Under the pieces are notes generated by a model. It had not been told where the DNA came from, ran no database searches, and saw only the letters and a program-made list of their open reading frames with translations. From contig NZ_FUYZ01000004.1 in assembly GCF_900167905.1 (NCBI RefSeq), positions 157,846 through 221,845 of the forward strand: a stretch of 64,000 nucleotides of DNA. The letters are read 5' to 3'. Within the stretch, counting starts at the first letter, position 1, and the number at the start of each line of letters is the position of its first letter. The translations under genes were made by a program, and so were the position numbers. The DNA is from Soonwooa buanensis (GTDB taxonomy: Bacteria > Bacteroidota > Bacteroidia > Flavobacteriales > Weeksellaceae). This document shows, piece after piece, positions 8,341 through 38,904 of this stretch.

Positions 8341-8376
8341 AAAAGCAAGTTGACTGTTGTTAACTTGCTTTTTTAT
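8341..8376 (+). terminator. Intrinsic terminator after dcp
   Basis: AAAGCAAGTT pairs with AACTTGCTTT across a short loop and is followed by a T-run. The repeat element at 8388-8498 begins about 12 bp downstream. Confidence 0.8.
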
Positions 8377-8387
8377 TATCCGAAATC

Positions 8388-8498
8388 TGCGGCCGGGATA
8401 GTAAGGGCGCTCGCGAAGCGAGCGGTCTGAAGAATGGCTTGGGAAAGTTTAGACTTCTGAAGACGGAACCCCTGAATAGCCCGAAATGCCGCCCAAAT
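8388..8498 (-). repeat. GC-rich structured interspersed element, subtype A copy 1
   Basis: A 111-bp GC-rich island in an AT-rich intergenic region, over 85% identical by eye to 12499-12610 and to the reverse complement of 38770-38882. Read on the minus strand it begins TTTGGGCGGC and ends GGCCGC. Those ends pair as GCGGC/GCCGC, and an internal arm GCTCGC-TTC-GCGAGC forms a hairpin. It has no open reading frame. It lies between dcp and aadS. Confidence 0.85.
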
Positions 8499-8567
8499 AA
8501 TACTACTTTTTTTGGAAATGATGGATAAATGAGCGATTTTTGAATTGTATAATCAAATCTATTTCTG

Positions 8568-9431
8568 ATGAAAATTCGTGATGAAAAGTTAGAAAATATC
8601 ATTGCTTGGGCAGAAAATAACGAAGATATTCGAGTGGTTTTGTTGACGAGTTCTTTGGTGAATCCGTTGGCGCCGGTTGATGATTTGAGCGATTTGGATA
8701 TCGAATTTGTTTTTGAAAATAATGATAAATATGTTGAAAATAATTCTTGGCTAAATATTTTTGGGAATCCAATTGCAATGATTGAAGAAGATGAAACTTG
8801 TTTTGATGGCAAGCATGCGATGAAGATGGTTTTGTACGAAGATGGCGTGAAGGTGGATTTTAAATTGTATAGTAAAACGAAATTCTGTGAAGAAGTTAAT
8901 CAGCAAGATTTGCCGGAAGATTGGGATATTGGCTATGAAATTTTGCTAGATAAAGACGAAATGACCAAGGCTATGAAGAAGCCTAGTTATCAAGTTTCGA
9001 TTATCAAGAAGCCGACAGAAGCGCAATTTCAAACCTTGTTAAATGATTTTTGGTGGGATACAACTTATGTTTCAAAATGTTTGAAAAGAGACGATTTATT
9101 TTATGCTAAATATATGTCCGAGGGTATTCGAAGTAATTATTTGGTTCCGTTGATTGAGTATTTTATCGGAAGTCAACACGATTGGAAAGTGACAACTAAT
9201 AAACATGGAAGGCTTTTCAAACACTATTTGTCGCCAGAATTATGGAAGAAAATTGAAGCAACATTTTCAGGAAGCGATATTGATGAAAACTGGAAAGCCT
9301 TATTTGCAATGATGGATTTGGTGCACGAAATTGGAACGCAATTATCTGTAAAACTGAATTTTAGCTATCCTGAAAAATTAGAAAAAGATATTAGAAAATA
9401 TACAACAGATTTGAAGGTTAAGATTAAATAA
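8568..9431 (+). CDS. aadS: Aminoglycoside 6-adenylyltransferase AadS-like
   Basis: Nucleotidyltransferase of the ANT(6) family that adenylylates streptomycin. The signature region LLTSSLVNPLAPVDDLSDLD (residues 25-44) contains the D-x-D metal-binding aspartates, followed by EEDETCFDGKHAMKMVLYEDGVKVDFKLY, which supplies the third acidic residue. The 287-aa length equals AadS of Bacteroides and the Chryseobacterium group. No mobility genes flank it, and codon use resembles its neighbours, so it looks like an intrinsic chromosomal copy. No convincing TAnnTTTG box is seen before the ATG; the 70 bp upstream follow a repeat element. Resistance itself cannot be judged from sequence. Confidence 0.83.
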   Translation: MKIRDEKLENIIAWAENNEDIRVVLLTSSLVNPLAPVDDLSDLDIEFVFENNDKYVENNSWLNIFGNPIAMIEEDETCFDGKHAMKMVLYEDGVKVDFKLYSKTKFCEEVNQQDLPEDWDIGYEILLDKDEMTKAMKKPSYQVSIIKKPTEAQFQTLLNDFWWDTTYVSKCLKRDDLFYAKYMSEGIRSNYLVPLIEYFIGSQHDWKVTTNKHGRLFKHYLSPELWKKIEATFSGSDIDENWKALFAMMDLVHEIGTQLSVKLNFSYPEKLEKDIRKYTTDLKVKIK

Positions 9432-9434
9432 AAA

Positions 9435-9466
9435 AATGGCAGTATTCTCGGAAGAATACCGCCATT
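9435..9466. terminator. Bidirectional hairpin between aadS and the M4 protease gene
   Basis: AATGGCAGTATTCT and AGAATACCGCCATT form a 14-bp stem with one mismatch and a 4-nt loop, between two convergent genes. The A-run on the left gives a T-tract for minus-strand transcripts; the plus side is weaker. Confidence 0.7.
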
Positions 9467-9485
9467 AAATAATGATTTTATAGTG

Positions 9486-12152
9486 TTATTTTTTTACGAA
9501 TTTTAGAACTATTGGTTCTTCTGAGTTGTCAATTTTGACAATGTATACACCTTGTTGTAGTCTTGCAACATTGATGTTTTGATCGTCTGATGTTAGTTTA
9601 ACACTCATTTTTAAATTACCAGCTACATCATAAATGTTGGCAGTGGTATCTTTTCTTAATTTCGCAGGGATATTCAAAGTGAAGTTGTCAACAACAGGAT
9701 TTGGATATAGTTTGATATCGTCATTTGTTAATTCTGAATTTTGGTTTTGAGAATTAATATTATTGACAGTATAACCTGGTTCTACTCGCAAAGAATAACA
9801 AGAGTTAGCATTGTAGCCGCTATATGGATATACTTTAATGTAATATGTTCCTGCAGCAAAATTATATTGTATCTTCTCAGCTGTTGTACCTGCATTCAAT
9901 GAGGATTTTAGAATGCTTGTACCATTTGAATTGTATAATCTTAAGTCAATATCATGTGTAAGATTGCTTAGTTTGATGGTAGCTTGTCCGCCAGTTGTAA
10001 AGGTAATTTTGTACCAGTCTATATCACCAGAAACTTGAATGGCTGCATTATAATCTGTGCTAAGTGCGGTGATTGGTGTTGCGGTCGCGGTTGTGTTATT
10101 TGATTCGTAAGCTTGTGCGCAAGAGCCAGTTGAAGCTGCAGTTGTGAATTGTCCAGTTGTGTAGTTGCTACTGCTAGTTATCGAACAATTATTTTTAACT
10201 CGAATATCATAAGTGGTACTCGCTGTAAGGCTAGTTAAGTTCTGTGTAGTTGTTGTTGTAGAATTTGTAGTCCATGTACTTGATGATGTTGGCTTGTATT
10301 CAAAACTATAGCCTGTTGATCCGCTTACTGCTGACCAGTTAACTGTGGCTGTAGTTTGTGTAATATTTGCAGAAGTTATAGTGCTAGGTGCTGTACAAGT
10401 TGTGGTGCCTCCTGAGCCAGCTGCAGAACCTATTCCTACGGCGTAAAATGCATTCATGACTTGATTGGCCTCGTTGCTGCCAACACCGTAAAGGTCTTCT
10501 GCAGATTTGATAGAGTAAGTTCTAGCATCAGCATAAGTTGAAGAAGCTCCTAGGTATGATGTGTTTGTTCTGTATGCAATTGCAGCAGCCTTTTGAATAC
10601 CGATACCAGTAACGTTAAAACTATTGCCGATATCATTAGTACCTGCGCCACCAACTGTTAATAAGTAGAACCAATAATTAAGTACACCAGAGTTGGTATG
10701 TACACCGCAGTAGTCGTTAGAGCTTGTCGGTGAGCAACCAGAGACATTAACCCATTTTGTACCTTTATAAGTATCTGGTTGGTTGTATTGGTTGGGATTA
10801 CTCATACTTCTAAAAGTCATTCCGATTTGTTGTCCCATTAGCCAATTGGCTGTTGTTGGTTTTGCAGAAAATTCGACTGCTTTTCCCAGAATGTCAGAAT
10901 AAGCTTCGTTAAGCGCACCAGACTCGCCACGATAAGCAAGATTTGAAGTTCTTTCTGTTACGCCATGCGTCATCTCGTGACCTACAATATCGAGTGAGGT
11001 TAATGGTGTAGTAGATGAATCGCCGTCGCCATAGGTCATTCTAGAGCCGTCCCAATAAGCATTAAGGTAGTTAGAGCTATAATGTACATAACTTAACATT
11101 TTCATACCGTTATTGTCGATACCATTTCTATTGTAGGTATTTTTATAGTAATCATAAACTTTTTCGGAACCCCAATGTGCATCCGTAGCGTATTGATCTT
11201 CTGCAGAGTTAACATTGTTCCAATTGTTGTCAGCATCGGTAAAGTCAACAGCATTTGTGTAGGATGTTGATTTTTTGAGATTGTAAGTTTCAATACCATT
11301 GCCTCTGCCAGTTTCACGAAGTCTATAGGTAGAACCTGTATAATCTGTTGTAATACTTTGTGTGCCACTGTATGCGGTTACTGCGCTTCCTGTTGTGTTA
11401 GCTAACATACTAGATGATGTGGCAATAACTGGGTGATAATCGATATGTATTTCTCTGCTAGTCCCTTCGCCGTACAGTGTTTTAATAAGGTCTTCACTTC
11501 CTAGGATGCTGCCGTTTTGTGCATCGACATATATTAATTTTCTTGAAACTGGAGCCTCTGCATAAATGTCAAATTTGTAAGCTAAACGCAATTGATCAGC
11601 TTTGAACTCGGAGCCAGAATTGTAATAAACAAGATCAGCTTTTGGAAGAAAGCTTGCATTCTTGTTTTGAGTTTCTTTTTTAAGGAAATCTTCTTCGGCT
11701 AGATTTTCCCATTTATATTGCTTAGCACCTACGAGGTTTTTGGCAGCAGCTAATGCTGAGCTTTCAGAAATTTTTGAGCTTTTGCTTTTTATATCTGATG
11801 AGAACTCTTTAATGCTTAATCCATTTTGAGCAAGCAATTTGCCAGCTTTTACATGTTGAACGATATAAGCGCCTTCGATAGGTATACCATTGTAGGTTTG
11901 TTGATAACGATAATGCTCGATACCCAGATTATCAATTTCTGAGGAAATGAATTTAAGTTCTGGAAGTTGATCTTTTGTACTTTTCGAATCGAAAGCAAAA
12001 ACACCTTTTTGGAAATTAGGTGCATTAGATTCTGTAAATTCGATAAGTGAGTTGTGAAATTTTTGATTGTTAAGGTCTTGTTTTTGTTCTTGACCATAAA
12101 ATGCTACTGCTATTCCTAAAGCAGCAACAGAAAGGTAGTACTTGTTTTTCAT
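9486..12152 (-). CDS. Secreted M4 (thermolysin-like) metalloprotease with T9SS sorting domain
   Basis: Extracellular zinc endopeptidase of 888 aa. Order: signal peptide (about 1-20), FTP/PepSY propeptide (about 25-220), M4 catalytic domain (about 230-570) with zinc motif HEMTH at 392-396 and third ligand Glu416 in GALNEAYSD, a fibronectin type III domain (about 583-670), a PPC-type beta domain (about 680-790) and a C-terminal Por/type A sorting domain (about 815-888) with YPNPV and the final VLKFVKK. The sorting domain predicts export through the type IX system after Sec transport. It has its own promoter (12173-12180). Confidence 0.93.
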   Translation of the reverse strand: MKNKYYLSVAALGIAVAFYGQEQKQDLNNQKFHNSLIEFTESNAPNFQKGVFAFDSKSTKDQLPELKFISSEIDNLGIEHYRYQQTYNGIPIEGAYIVQHVKAGKLLAQNGLSIKEFSSDIKSKSSKISESSALAAAKNLVGAKQYKWENLAEEDFLKKETQNKNASFLPKADLVYYNSGSEFKADQLRLAYKFDIYAEAPVSRKLIYVDAQNGSILGSEDLIKTLYGEGTSREIHIDYHPVIATSSSMLANTTGSAVTAYSGTQSITTDYTGSTYRLRETGRGNGIETYNLKKSTSYTNAVDFTDADNNWNNVNSAEDQYATDAHWGSEKVYDYYKNTYNRNGIDNNGMKMLSYVHYSSNYLNAYWDGSRMTYGDGDSSTTPLTSLDIVGHEMTHGVTERTSNLAYRGESGALNEAYSDILGKAVEFSAKPTTANWLMGQQIGMTFRSMSNPNQYNQPDTYKGTKWVNVSGCSPTSSNDYCGVHTNSGVLNYWFYLLTVGGAGTNDIGNSFNVTGIGIQKAAAIAYRTNTSYLGASSTYADARTYSIKSAEDLYGVGSNEANQVMNAFYAVGIGSAAGSGGTTTCTAPSTITSANITQTTATVNWSAVSGSTGYSFEYKPTSSSTWTTNSTTTTTQNLTSLTASTTYDIRVKNNCSITSSSNYTTGQFTTAASTGSCAQAYESNNTTATATPITALSTDYNAAIQVSGDIDWYKITFTTGGQATIKLSNLTHDIDLRLYNSNGTSILKSSLNAGTTAEKIQYNFAAGTYYIKVYPYSGYNANSCYSLRVEPGYTVNNINSQNQNSELTNDDIKLYPNPVVDNFTLNIPAKLRKDTTANIYDVAGNLKMSVKLTSDDQNINVARLQQGVYIVKIDNSEEPIVLKFVKK

Positions 12153-12172
12153 TTTTTAAGATTTGGTATCGA

Positions 12173-12180
12173 CAAATGTA
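12173..12180 (-). promoter_or_regulatory. -7 box of the M4 protease gene
   Basis: Reading minus strand, TACATTTG matches TAnnTTTG, 20 nt upstream of the ATG at 12152. Confidence 0.6.
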
Positions 12181-12498
12181 TAATAAAATCCTAATGAAAA
12201 AATAAAATTTTTGAGAAAAATATAATAAATAGAATTAAATTATATAAATTATGTAATTTAATTAATATTGTCTATAATTTATTCATTTGTTTTGTTTGTG
12301 ATGTTATTGATTTTATTTATGTTAAAAGATTGGTAATCTATAAATTAATGTAGTATTATGTTTGGAATAGTTTATTATTTAAAATAGTTTTAGGTTATAG
12401 ATATTTAAAATTAGATTGGTAAAACTGATAAATAAAATAAATATTTGAAGCTTTTAAAGAAATTTCTTTCATTATAACTTTTGTAATTATCCACCAGC
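12181..12498. other. AT-rich intergenic stretch with no gene
   Basis: About 320 bp of very AT-rich sequence upstream of the M4 protease promoter. I see no open reading frame, tRNA or convincing hairpin. It could hold upstream regulatory sites for the protease. Confidence 0.6.
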
Positions 12499-12610
12499 TG
12501 CGGCCGGGATAGTAAGGGCGCGAGCGCAGCGAGCGGTCTGAAGAAAAGCTTTGGGAAAGTTTAGGCTTCTGAAGACGGAACCCCTGAATAGCCCGAAATG
12601 CCGCCCAAAT
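12499..12610 (-). repeat. GC-rich structured interspersed element, subtype A copy 2
   Basis: Second copy of the element at 8388-8498, same orientation, with the same closing pair GCGGC/GCCGC (12500-12504 with 12600-12604) and the shared GGGCTATTC and CTATCCC blocks on the minus strand. The internal GC arm differs: GCTCGCTGCGCTCGC instead of the perfect inverted repeat of copy 1. Confidence 0.85.
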
Positions 12611-16938: not shown

Positions 16939-16973
16939 AGGATTTTAAGCGAGAGAGAAAATTGAAGTTTTAC

Positions 16974-17160
16974 TTATGAATTATGAATTATGAATTATGA
17001 ATTATGAATTATGAATTATGAATTATGAATTATGAATTATGAATTATGAATTAGTTTTGATTAAGAGACAAGAGACAAGAGACAAGAGACAAGAGACAAG
17101 AATCAAGAGACAAGAACCCAAAACCGACAACCATCAACCATCAACCATCAATTAACAACC
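16974..17160. repeat. Composite heptanucleotide repeat array (copy 2)
   Basis: Eleven perfect tandem TTATGAA units occupy 16974-17050. After a 12-bp spacer come five perfect AAGAGAC units (17063-17097), then the variants AAGAATC, AAGAGAC and AAGAACC. CATCAAC-type units follow to about 17155, ending in ACAACCAAAACTAAT. The motif order matches the array at the left window edge. It is intergenic, between the ABC-F promoter and the 3' end of the DUF5715 gene. Confidence 0.95.
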
Positions 17161-17164
17161 AAAA

Positions 17165-19519: not shown

Positions 19520-20512
19520 TTAATGTAAAGGTTTTTTTAGTGCTTTTTCGACTTCGTTACCACAAAGGTCTTGTATGCTGATGCCATAGATTTTGGCTTG
19601 TTGCGGAAGGATACTCGCTGGCGAAAAACCAGGATTGGTATTCATTTCCAGCATATAAGGTTCGCCGTTCATGATGATATATTCACTTCTAGAGAAACCA
19701 CTCATCCCAAGAGAATCATACGCACGAATCGAAATTTCTTCAACCTTTTTGCGTGTTTCCTCGTCTAGTCTTGCTGGCGTTATCTCTTGCGAAGCGCCTT
19801 CGTATTTAGCTTGATAATCAAAAAACTCATTGTCAGGCACAATTTCCGTAATTCCCAAAACAATAGTTTTTCCTTGATAATCTAAAACGCCAACCGAAAC
19901 CTCAGTGCCGTCCAAGAAGCTTTCGATAAGGATTTCGTCGTCTTCTTTATAAGCGATTTCAATCGCTTTGTTTAGTTCAGATATATCTTTAACCTTCGAA
20001 ATTCCGAGGCTACTTCCAGATTGGTTAGGTTTTACAAAAACAGGAAGTCCCAGTTCTGTAACTATTTTTTCTTGATCGACAACTTCGCCTTTTCTTAAAT
20101 AAATACTTTTTGCAGACGGAATATTATATTTTGACAAAACCGCCAACGTATCTTTTTTATTAAAAGTCAAGGCACTTTGGTAGAAGTTGCAGCCCGTATA
20201 ACGTTGTCCAACAGCGTCCCAATAAGCTTGCAGAATACCATTTTCACCTGGTGTTCCATGGATAATGTTGAAGCAAGCATCAAATTTCAATGCGCTACCA
20301 TCAGCCAACGTCACCGAAAAATCCACTTTGTTAATGCCAAGTTTTTGTTCGTTTTCATCCAAAAAGTACCATTCATCTTTTAGGATAACAACTTTATAAA
20401 CATTGTATTTATCGCGGTCTAGAGAGTCGTAGATCAATTGTCCACTTTTTAGCGATACAACATATTCATCAGAATAGCCGCCCATAACAACAGCTATATT
20501 TTTCTTTTCCAT
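19520..20512 (-). CDS. ddl: D-alanine--D-alanine ligase
   Basis: ATP-grasp ligase that makes the D-Ala-D-Ala dipeptide for peptidoglycan. From the ATG at 20512 it is 330 aa, starting MEKKNIAVVMGGYSDEYVVS. Typical blocks are HGTPGENG (substrate loop), VFVKPNQSGSSLGISKV (ATP-binding lysine) and EMNTNPGFSPASILPQQA at the C-terminus with the metal ligands. The reading frame stays open 36 codons further upstream, but that extension crosses the -7 box at 20531-20538 and is not conserved-looking. It is first in a ddl-coaD operon and divergent from the PASTA gene. Confidence 0.93.
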   Translation of the reverse strand: MEKKNIAVVMGGYSDEYVVSLKSGQLIYDSLDRDKYNVYKVVILKDEWYFLDENEQKLGINKVDFSVTLADGSALKFDACFNIIHGTPGENGILQAYWDAVGQRYTGCNFYQSALTFNKKDTLAVLSKYNIPSAKSIYLRKGEVVDQEKIVTELGLPVFVKPNQSGSSLGISKVKDISELNKAIEIAYKEDDEILIESFLDGTEVSVGVLDYQGKTIVLGITEIVPDNEFFDYQAKYEGASQEITPARLDEETRKKVEEISIRAYDSLGMSGFSRSEYIIMNGEPYMLEMNTNPGFSPASILPQQAKIYGISIQDLCGNEVEKALKKPLH

Positions 20513-20530
20513 AACAGATTTATATTGCAA

Positions 20531-20538
20531 CAAATGTA
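20531..20538 (-). promoter_or_regulatory. -7 box of ddl-coaD
   Basis: Minus-strand TACATTTG matches TAnnTTTG, 18 nt upstream of the ddl ATG. It supports the start at 20512 over the longer frame. Confidence 0.6.
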
Positions 20539-20579
20539 AAAATTTTATCAACAAGGACCGTCCCGTTTGCTTTTTATTT

Positions 20580-20710
20580 TTGGGCGATTCCGCAACTTTT
20601 CCTAGCTTTTTCCTTGGCACAGTTGCGGTCGGGCTATTCGCTGCTATCTTCTGTCCATCGCTTTAGCCATTTCTTCAGAAGGATATCCGCTGCTATCCCT
20701 ATCGCAAAAT
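20580..20710 (+). repeat. Structured interspersed element, subtype B copy 1
   Basis: A 131-bp element between the divergent ddl and PASTA promoters. The closing stem is GCGAT (20584-20588) with ATCGC (20701-20705). Arm 1 is CCGCAACT (20590-20597) with AGTTGCGG (20621-20628). Arm 2 is ATCTTCTG (20646-20653) with CAGAAGGAT (20676-20684, one bulge). The block CGCTGCTATC occurs twice (20639 and 20688). It shares TTTGGGCG, GGGCTATTC, CATTTCTTCAGA and CTATCCC with the subtype A copies. Confidence 0.8.
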
Positions 20711-33950: not shown

Positions 33951-34105
33951 TTTGGGCGTGCCCACAATAATAAAGACTGCTTAATATGGGCAGTCTTTTT
34001 TATTGTGGTCGGTCTCCATGCAGTCGCTGTTATGCTCGGACGGCTCCGCTGCGCTCCGCCGCCTCGCATAACGAGCTCCAACAATGCATTTCGCCCTCAC
34101 GCAAA
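33951..34105 (+). repeat. Structured interspersed element, subtype B copy 2
   Basis: A 155-bp element between convergent genes. The closing stem is GCGTG (33956-33960) with CACGC (34098-34102). Arm 1 is a 19-bp stem with one mismatch (33962-33980 with 33990-34008) ending in a T-rich side, and can act as the terminator of the upstream gene. Arm 2 is GTTATGC (34029-34035) with GCATAAC (34066-34072) around a GC-rich core. Its layout matches the copy at 20580-20710 although the arm sequences differ. Confidence 0.8.
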
Positions 34106-38769: not shown

Positions 38770-38882
38770 TTTGGGCGGCATTTCGGGCTATTCAGGGGTT
38801 TCGTCTTCAGAAACCCGAACTTTCCCCAAGCATTTCTTCAGACCGCTCCTTGCAGTCGCGCCCTTACTATCCCGGCCGCGAC
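38770..38882 (+). repeat. GC-rich structured interspersed element, subtype A copy 3
   Basis: Third subtype A copy, opposite in orientation to the first two. The closing stem is GCGGC (38775-38779) with GCCGC (38875-38879). An internal hairpin GGGTTTC/GAAACCC is perfect here but weaker in the other copies. It lies between the 3' ends of convergent transcripts. Confidence 0.85.
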
Positions 38883-38904
38883 TACTAACCGCCATAATTG
38901 TAAA

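Follow-up and report, generated by a model that had tools for sequence, protein, structure and literature searches.

Folded intergenic elements in the window

The window, which is the whole 64,000-nucleotide stretch of the Soonwooa buanensis genome analyzed here, carries five folded elements located between genes. A sequence-only reading had described these elements, and reading the window confirmed both their places and their ends. All five fall between long open reading frames (ORFs), in agreement with the proposal that the copies sit between genes and contain no ORF; the listed ORFs that overlap them, 8360-8812 on the minus strand and the 5' extension of 19520-20620 on the minus strand, are mechanical calls. 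Both the Rfam match of the 20.6-kb copy and the lower folding energy (in 5/5 elements) lie on the reverse of the strand that was read. The features are as follows.

20580-20710, minus strand (the Rfam Flavo-1 strand; the strand first read is its complement): the complete 20.6-kb element, supported by an Rfam match and an orthologue in the related genome G032
20584-20588, minus strand: one side of the closing stem, GCGAT when read on the plus strand, supported by sequence and closing-stem statistics
20701-20705, minus strand: other side of the closing stem, ATCGC when read on the plus strand, supported by sequence and closing-stem statistics
20590-20628, minus strand: arm 1 hairpin, CCGCAACT ... 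AGTTGCGG, supported by sequence and folding
20631-20699, minus strand: core stem and exchangeable tip, the part modelled by Rfam, supported by the Rfam alignment and covariation
8388-8498, plus strand (Flavo-1-like strand): subtype A copy, from the copy search, under the Rfam threshold
12499-12610, plus strand: subtype A copy, in direct orientation relative to the 8.4-kb copy, from the copy search
33951-34105, minus strand: third sub-type, GCGTG/CACGC, with a long arm 1 and a tip hairpin common to many Flavo-1 copies, from the copy search
38770-38882, minus strand: subtype A copy, from the copy search
38880-38890, minus strand: GGTTAGTAGTC box, directly 5' of the 38.8-kb element on the Flavo strand, overlapping the last three bases of the element as first delimited
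8375-8388, plus strand: ATTATCC...TCT box, directly 5' of the 8.4-kb element on the Flavo strand, from the box count
12486-12499, plus strand: the same box in its ATTATCC...GCT form, next to the 12.5-kb copy, from the box count

A scan of the window against all of Rfam returned a single match over threshold, to Flavo-1 (RF01705), at 20623-20710 on the minus strand (43.8 bits; gathering threshold 42). The sequence-only reading had placed the elements in no known family and had named an Rfam match as evidence against its view; this is what was found for the 20.6-kb copy, while the other four copies are below threshold, with no Flavo-1 match up to E = 2. The 34-kb element gave a partial match to a second model, R1, at 34025-34076 (E 0.00078). 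The 20.6-kb copy is thus a member of an already catalogued family, and the other four are relatives missed by Rfam. Flavo-1 (Weinberg et al. 2010, PMC2864571) has the same core fold and comes from the same lineage. The RF01705 model comprises 76 positions on the strand assumed to be the RNA, and spans the core with closing ends of the TAGC type. It does not extend to arm 1, to the variable closing stem, to the sister sub-types, or to the DNA-like behaviour of the elements described below.

On the Rfam strand, an element opens with one 5-mer of the closing stem. The core stem comes next and carries a tip hairpin between its two sides; arm 1 follows, then the complement of the first 5-mer, and finally CC[C/T]AAA. 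Read on the opposite strand, TTTGG or TTTAGG (or a variant) precedes a closed hairpin with several arms. Units are approximately 110-160 nt long, intergenic, and present in tens of copies per genome. The sister sub-types missed by Rfam share this plan of variable closing stem, arm 1, covarying core, and exchangeable tip. A further sub-type with GCAGC/GCTGC ends, also outside the Rfam model, is common in relatives; L277:1045-1150 is one such element, with many matches in genomes G037 and G126.

In the genome containing the window (3.33 Mb, 30 contigs), Flavo-1 matches at E<=0.001 number at least 60, and 41 of these reach the threshold; the total is a lower bound because 150 of 797 candidates were scored. 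Subtype A is represented there by five copies over most of its length, query included. The 34-kb element as query gave 42 matches, mostly to the tip or to one end only, and its distal hairpin is common to many Flavo-1 copies. Across the class, Flavo-1 was detected in 76 of 198 genomes, which represent 46 of the 121 genera sampled. In a sample of the family, 123 of 148 genomes were positive, with 0 to at least 29 matches per genome. Model R1, which does not cover all sub-types, found 85 copies in G008 and 77 in G037; where copies were counted, there were 59-90 per genome. No blastn match of 20580-20710 was found in plasmid and phage collections.

Two regions of the window merit separate mention. 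The direct subtype A copies at 8388-12610 bound about 4 kb with two genes, and G032 has a single subtype A-like element at the matching junction; this segment was therefore gained or lost between copies. At 16961-17163 are tandem repeats, ATTATGA-type heptamers followed by AGAGACA-type, whose sequence recurs at many places in the genome.

Covariation of the core and closing stem

The five closing stems differ in sequence and remain paired, as had been noted. On the Rfam strand they are GCGGC/GCCGC at 8.4, 12.5, and 38.8 kb, GCGAT/ATCGC at 20.6 kb, and GCGTG/CACGC at 34 kb. The related claim that arms 1 and 2 vary yet stay paired was borne out across the copies read. Among 27 copies from the same genome, 13 of 14 predicted pairs had changed on both sides.

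Tests of covariation showed an excess of pairing over shuffles, both in the core and in the closing stem. For the core structure we used 106 copies from this genome and its relatives, in an alignment that was fitted to the model and is consequently biased in the model's favour. Paired cells made up 97.6% compared to 72.7% after shuffling, the covariation score was 0.668 compared to 0.215, and 369 cells had changed on both sides compared to 105; none of these values was reached in 500 shuffles. The number of pairs with a change on both sides (12) and of further pair types (29) did not exceed shuffles of the same 106 copies. When partners were slid along the alignment as a control, pairing dropped to 37-54%.

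For the closing stem, ends were located by motif, and both GC-type end motifs were present in 48 of 131 elements; the 83 elements without one GC-type end motif, many of them of the TAGC/GCTCC type, were omitted. The three inner closing pairs, which are not fixed by the motif, were Watson-Crick in 131 of 144 cases, whereas swapping ends between copies gave a mean of 37.5% and a maximum of 55%. When the 15 distinct left/right combinations were each counted once, 80% paired compared to 37.7% after shuffling (maximum 68.9%). Failing pairs at L046, L278, and L055 resemble misplaced ends and were retained in the count.

Dispersal, tip exchange, and replication strand

Many pairs of near-identical copies occur in the genome containing the window, with homology that spans the unit from closing stem to CC[C/T]AAA and then diverges on both sides. 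Among 69 alignments (at least 85% identity over 90 nt), 58 reach no more than 15 nt upstream of the model match. The other 11 run more than 15 nt into the 5' flank and include L044-L047 and L014/L017; a minority of copies therefore spread, or were duplicated, together with flanking sequence. L044-L047 are four near-identical long-tip copies from this genome, some sharing flanks with ATAATTC tandem repeats, and L044, L046, and L047 lie within about 1.5 kb of contig ends. No target duplication was visible by eye at the copies read, or at one site with a presence/absence difference whose flanks also differ. A model R1 search for empty sites among 80 named loci gave 10 matches among the matches listed, in which L093/L091 form a close pair.

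The ATTATCC...TCT and GGTTAGTAGTC boxes lie directly beside elements of different types. Within 253 kb of sequence from the same genome, GGTTAGTAGTC (4/4) and TTATCCGAAATC (3/3) occurred only beside elements, and looser forms of TTATCCGAAATC were also present away from them. These boxes may reflect a target preference or be an optional part of the element.

Comparison of orthologous sites shows that copies are mostly inherited. The 20.6-kb element is orthologous in G032, which belongs to the same genus, inside an alignment of 87% identity. For 11 of 15 loci of G037, a matching locus was found in the sampled sequence of G008. Eight of ten aligned pairs of the G037/G008 type had the same tip, and two, L190/L278 and L186/L206, had a different one; some elements in these ten pairs were conserved equally to their flanks or more. 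At a site designated A, the element was present in all 10 genomes in which both anchors were found (nine of 13 relatives, all but L168, L169, L170, and L177, plus G008), with a probable stop codon on one side and a terminator-like hairpin on the other. Tips at site A fell into two unrelated classes, with five genomes each, and G126 differed from G008 in tip class despite flanks that are 94-98% identical. The tip also differed between G008 and G126 at a second site, and one arm differed between orthologues at another. At site B, both anchors were found in one of seven relatives.

One element is present in G008 and G037 and absent in G126. Because G126 also differs in about 40-50 nt of flank, this site does not fix gain versus loss or the exact ends of the unit. 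The two other elements of this stretch lie inside continuous alignments in both genomes and are common to both.

Copies were also distributed unevenly with respect to replication. On the single-contig chromosome of G008, the copies listed (77 of 85) segregate by strand along its length (scan p 0.0055). Positive GC skew is taken to mark the leading strand, and 20 samples of 18 kb placed the G008 origin at about 2.4 Mb and the terminus at about 0.78 Mb. With replichores defined in this way, 53 of the 77 have one orientation relative to the fork (p 0.001; 51-54 over alternative choices of origin and terminus). A similar bias was observed in G131, where 60 of 90 copies share one orientation with the terminus placed by skew at 2.2 Mb (p 0.002; 59-62 for terminus choices from 2.1 to 2.44 Mb). 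In G067 the strand split was 41/59 (scan p 0.038), and its noisy skew gave no origin placement. The origins come from sampled GC skew only. Copies shared by descent or at shared sites are not independent between genomes, which makes these p-values optimistic. With the skew convention given above, about two thirds of copies have their 5' foot on the strand that serves as lagging-strand template. A guide foot 5' of the hairpin has been described both in REP elements and in IS200/IS605, the latter of which also use the lagging strand (PMC6006769).

RNA or mobile DNA

The sequence-only reading had left a choice between REP- or MITE-like DNA and a structured RNA. In the RNA account, each element is an sRNA or a piece of a UTR, folded on the Flavo-1 strand and maintained by selection on RNA pairing. 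The filing of RF01705 as an sRNA and the strong covariation speak for it, as do the elements that match or exceed the conservation of their flanks and the retention of site A in 10/10 anchored genomes, with a probable stop codon and a terminator-like hairpin on either side. The Flavo strand also folds more stably in 63 of 85 elements, with a mean difference of -4.65 kcal/mol compared to -1.63 in 118 flank windows. An RNA would be expected to show more G.U than A.C mismatches on its functional strand. Using helices placed with a scoring that treats the two alike, we counted 60 of each over the cores and tips of 131 elements; the 91 non-redundant ones gave 41 G.U and 43 A.C, and the long helices of 85 elements gave 80 and 88. 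Wobble was uneven along the hairpin, with 18 G.U and 37 A.C in the outer half and 42 and 23 in the inner half, suggesting that each strand is favoured in one half of the hairpin. Columns fitted by the covariance model contained 23 G.U and 9 A.C, which speaks for an RNA, although the priors of such models favour G.U. A tRNA control for wobble bias gave 5 G.U and 1 A.C, from only four distinct tRNAs, too few to carry weight.

Further points weigh against an RNA. The orientation of elements relative to flanking genes, based on rough ORF calls, was random (++19, --15, +-13, -+13, n=60), whole tips are replaced between orthologues, and genomes hold 59-90 copies. In a published transcript map of Flavobacterium psychrophilum, Flavo-1 matches seemed indistinctly sense or antisense, many were outside transcribed regions, and neither a clear strand nor a clear function emerged (PMC9723704). 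We therefore regard a structured RNA as quite unlikely. A chromosomal DNA structure with a host role, for instance a hairpin connected with replication or lying beside a terminator, to which a host protein binds, would agree with the replication-strand bias and with the terminator-like hairpin adjoining the conserved site A. It is very improbable given a range of 0 to at least 29 matches per genome within one family and the random gene context.

Another explanation is that the elements are old, immobile repeats in which template switching during replication both makes and restores the hairpins, so that pairing needs no function. Template switching is described as making and mending stems, yielding perfect stems and multi-base compensatory changes (PMC8794818). 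This process fits the elements because they show no net wobble bias and exchange whole tips at orthologous sites; most copies are also common to close species. Immobility is harder to reconcile with near-identical copies at unrelated sites, which require a copying step, with the conserved foot and core, and with 5-bp closing pairs that stay paired around about 100 nt or more in most copies tested. We consider it unlikely overall. As for the earlier claim of selection on fold, the covarying fold is real, but the case for selection is less strong than was claimed, since double changes that preserve pairing can also come from template switching and whole tips differ at orthologous sites.

The elements were then compared to known mobile DNA. 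They resemble REP elements moved by RAYT (TnpA_REP) transposases in being intergenic, in having many copies and a hairpin with a conserved 5' foot on one strand, and in showing no target duplication at the sites read. They differ in being multi-arm and 110-160 nt long, compared to 21-65 nt for REP (PMC6006769), and in having a TTTGG/TTTAGG foot rather than GT[AG]G, with no model match beside 22 Y1 genes. On reading the copies printed, no GT[AG]G foot was seen at the hairpin; the foot was mostly TTTGG or TTTAGG, with variants such as TTTGAAG. REP elements proper are thus not supported, on length, foot, and the absence of a model match at 22 Y1 loci. With IS200/IS605 ends and their non-autonomous derivatives the elements share the foot-plus-hairpin geometry and the replication orientation bias (53/77 in G008 and 60/90 in G131, by GC-skew replichores), but no transposase encoded within them and no conserved end sequence was seen, and an enzyme acting in trans was not found. 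Like MITEs, they are short, non-coding, and dispersed with a terminal inverted repeat; MITEs proper are not supported, because the terminal repeats vary among copies (48 elements have 15 different closing combinations) and the sites read showed no target duplication. Integron attC sites are recombination sites known by their fold, with a variable terminal structure, and their core boxes have the consensus RYYYAAC/GTTRRRY. The elements differ from attC in having dispersed copies and GC...GC or TAGC...GCTCC ends, and reading their listed ends revealed no RYYYAAC/GTTRRRY boxes.

A REP-associated or IS200-like transposase had been suggested as something to look for, and two Y1 (RAYT-like) genes are indeed present in the genome containing the window, L031 (G000:C29:378232) and L032 (G000:C11:296688). 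From translations of their neighbours, we take these to lie between carA and carB and between trp genes. Small palindromic repeats lie downstream of both. Y1 genes occur in 99 of the 148 family genomes and are more common where Flavo-1 is abundant: 52 of 58 genomes with at least 20 matches have one, compared to 47 of the remaining 90 (Fisher p 2e-6, uncorrected for genome size or phylogeny). This association would be expected if Y1 transposases of these genomes moved the elements as REP-type DNA, as would the Bacteroidetes subclass 2.6 genes, described in one study as flanked by 'atypical secondary structures' (PMC6006769). Six genomes with at least 20 matches nevertheless have no Y1 match at E<=1e-3, and five of 20 listed genomes without Flavo-1 have one.

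None of 22 Y1 loci inspected had a match to model R1, which does not cover all sub-types, within about 0.8 kb. Their flanks (L216-L235) instead hold other REP-like repeats such as GCTCCGTAGGAGC, as judged from the 17 loci in which the Y1 gene was located (all except L222-L225 and L232). At two of the 22, L219 and L234, a short hairpin is directly followed by CCCAAA, the tail of the elements, and L229 has a similar hairpin with an extra C before the tail; these three look like one orthologous locus. Since CC[C/T]AAA was no more common after hairpins than control tails (7/3252, in 2.7 Mb), we treat CCCAAA as a weak hint of a Y1 link. RAYT was rejected as the mover on the basis of the 22 loci, with the search covering this genome and the 148 family genomes, and Y1-driven movement is in our judgment improbable. 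We also looked for an autonomous version at 20 loci, chosen because they lie close to contig ends or have near copies in further families, and saw no transposase within the unit in an unannotated ORF list. Repeats shared among seven G213 loci, of those listed, were up to 258 nt long.

Collectively, these findings favour the DNA branch of the original choice, because there is no net wobble bias, gene orientation is random, many copies are discrete units, one site shows a presence/absence difference, and copies are biased by replication strand; within that branch, MITEs proper and REP elements proper are not supported. Our preferred reading, held tentatively and at slightly less than an even chance, is that the elements are non-autonomous mobile DNA in which a folded single strand is the recognized feature and the arms are renewed at the DNA level. 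Besides the RNA-like signals in folding and in the model columns, the predominance of inherited copies, the minority that spread with flanking sequence, and the six high-copy genomes lacking a Y1 match count against it. We infer that they work like a REP/IS200 element, yet they fall outside REP in foot, length, and linkage. In such a mechanism, the strand with the 5' T-rich foot would be exposed as the lagging-strand template at the replication fork and would then fold. A single-strand transposase acting in trans could cut and paste the folded strand, following the geometry of IS200/IS605 and REP elements. Insertion would make no target duplication, and copies would afterwards persist by descent. 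The main source of paired double changes and of whole-tip exchange would be processes acting on DNA, either template switching or conversion between copies, and selection would act only for remaining a hairpin. Many genomes today may lack the candidate enzyme.

Covariation is commonly accepted as proving that an RNA is functional, and Flavo-1 was catalogued as an sRNA on that ground. Its equal G.U and A.C counts overall, random gene orientation, replication-strand bias, and whole-tip exchange point instead to DNA. Our searches of the open-access literature turned up no description of Flavo-1 as a mobile DNA element. A bolder possibility, which we consider rather unlikely, is a large class of bacterial mobile DNA known by shape alone, with ends that are free as long as they pair, interchangeable tips, entry on the lagging-strand template, and an enzyme unrelated to known REP transposases; a transposable DNA hairpin would in that case be listed among RNA families in a database. 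If the preferred mobile-DNA reading is true, the family would be a warning about RNA discovery from covariation alone and would offer a wealth of genomes in which to test how template switching shapes bacterial hairpins, and a single-strand transposition activity would be left to find in Flavobacteriia.
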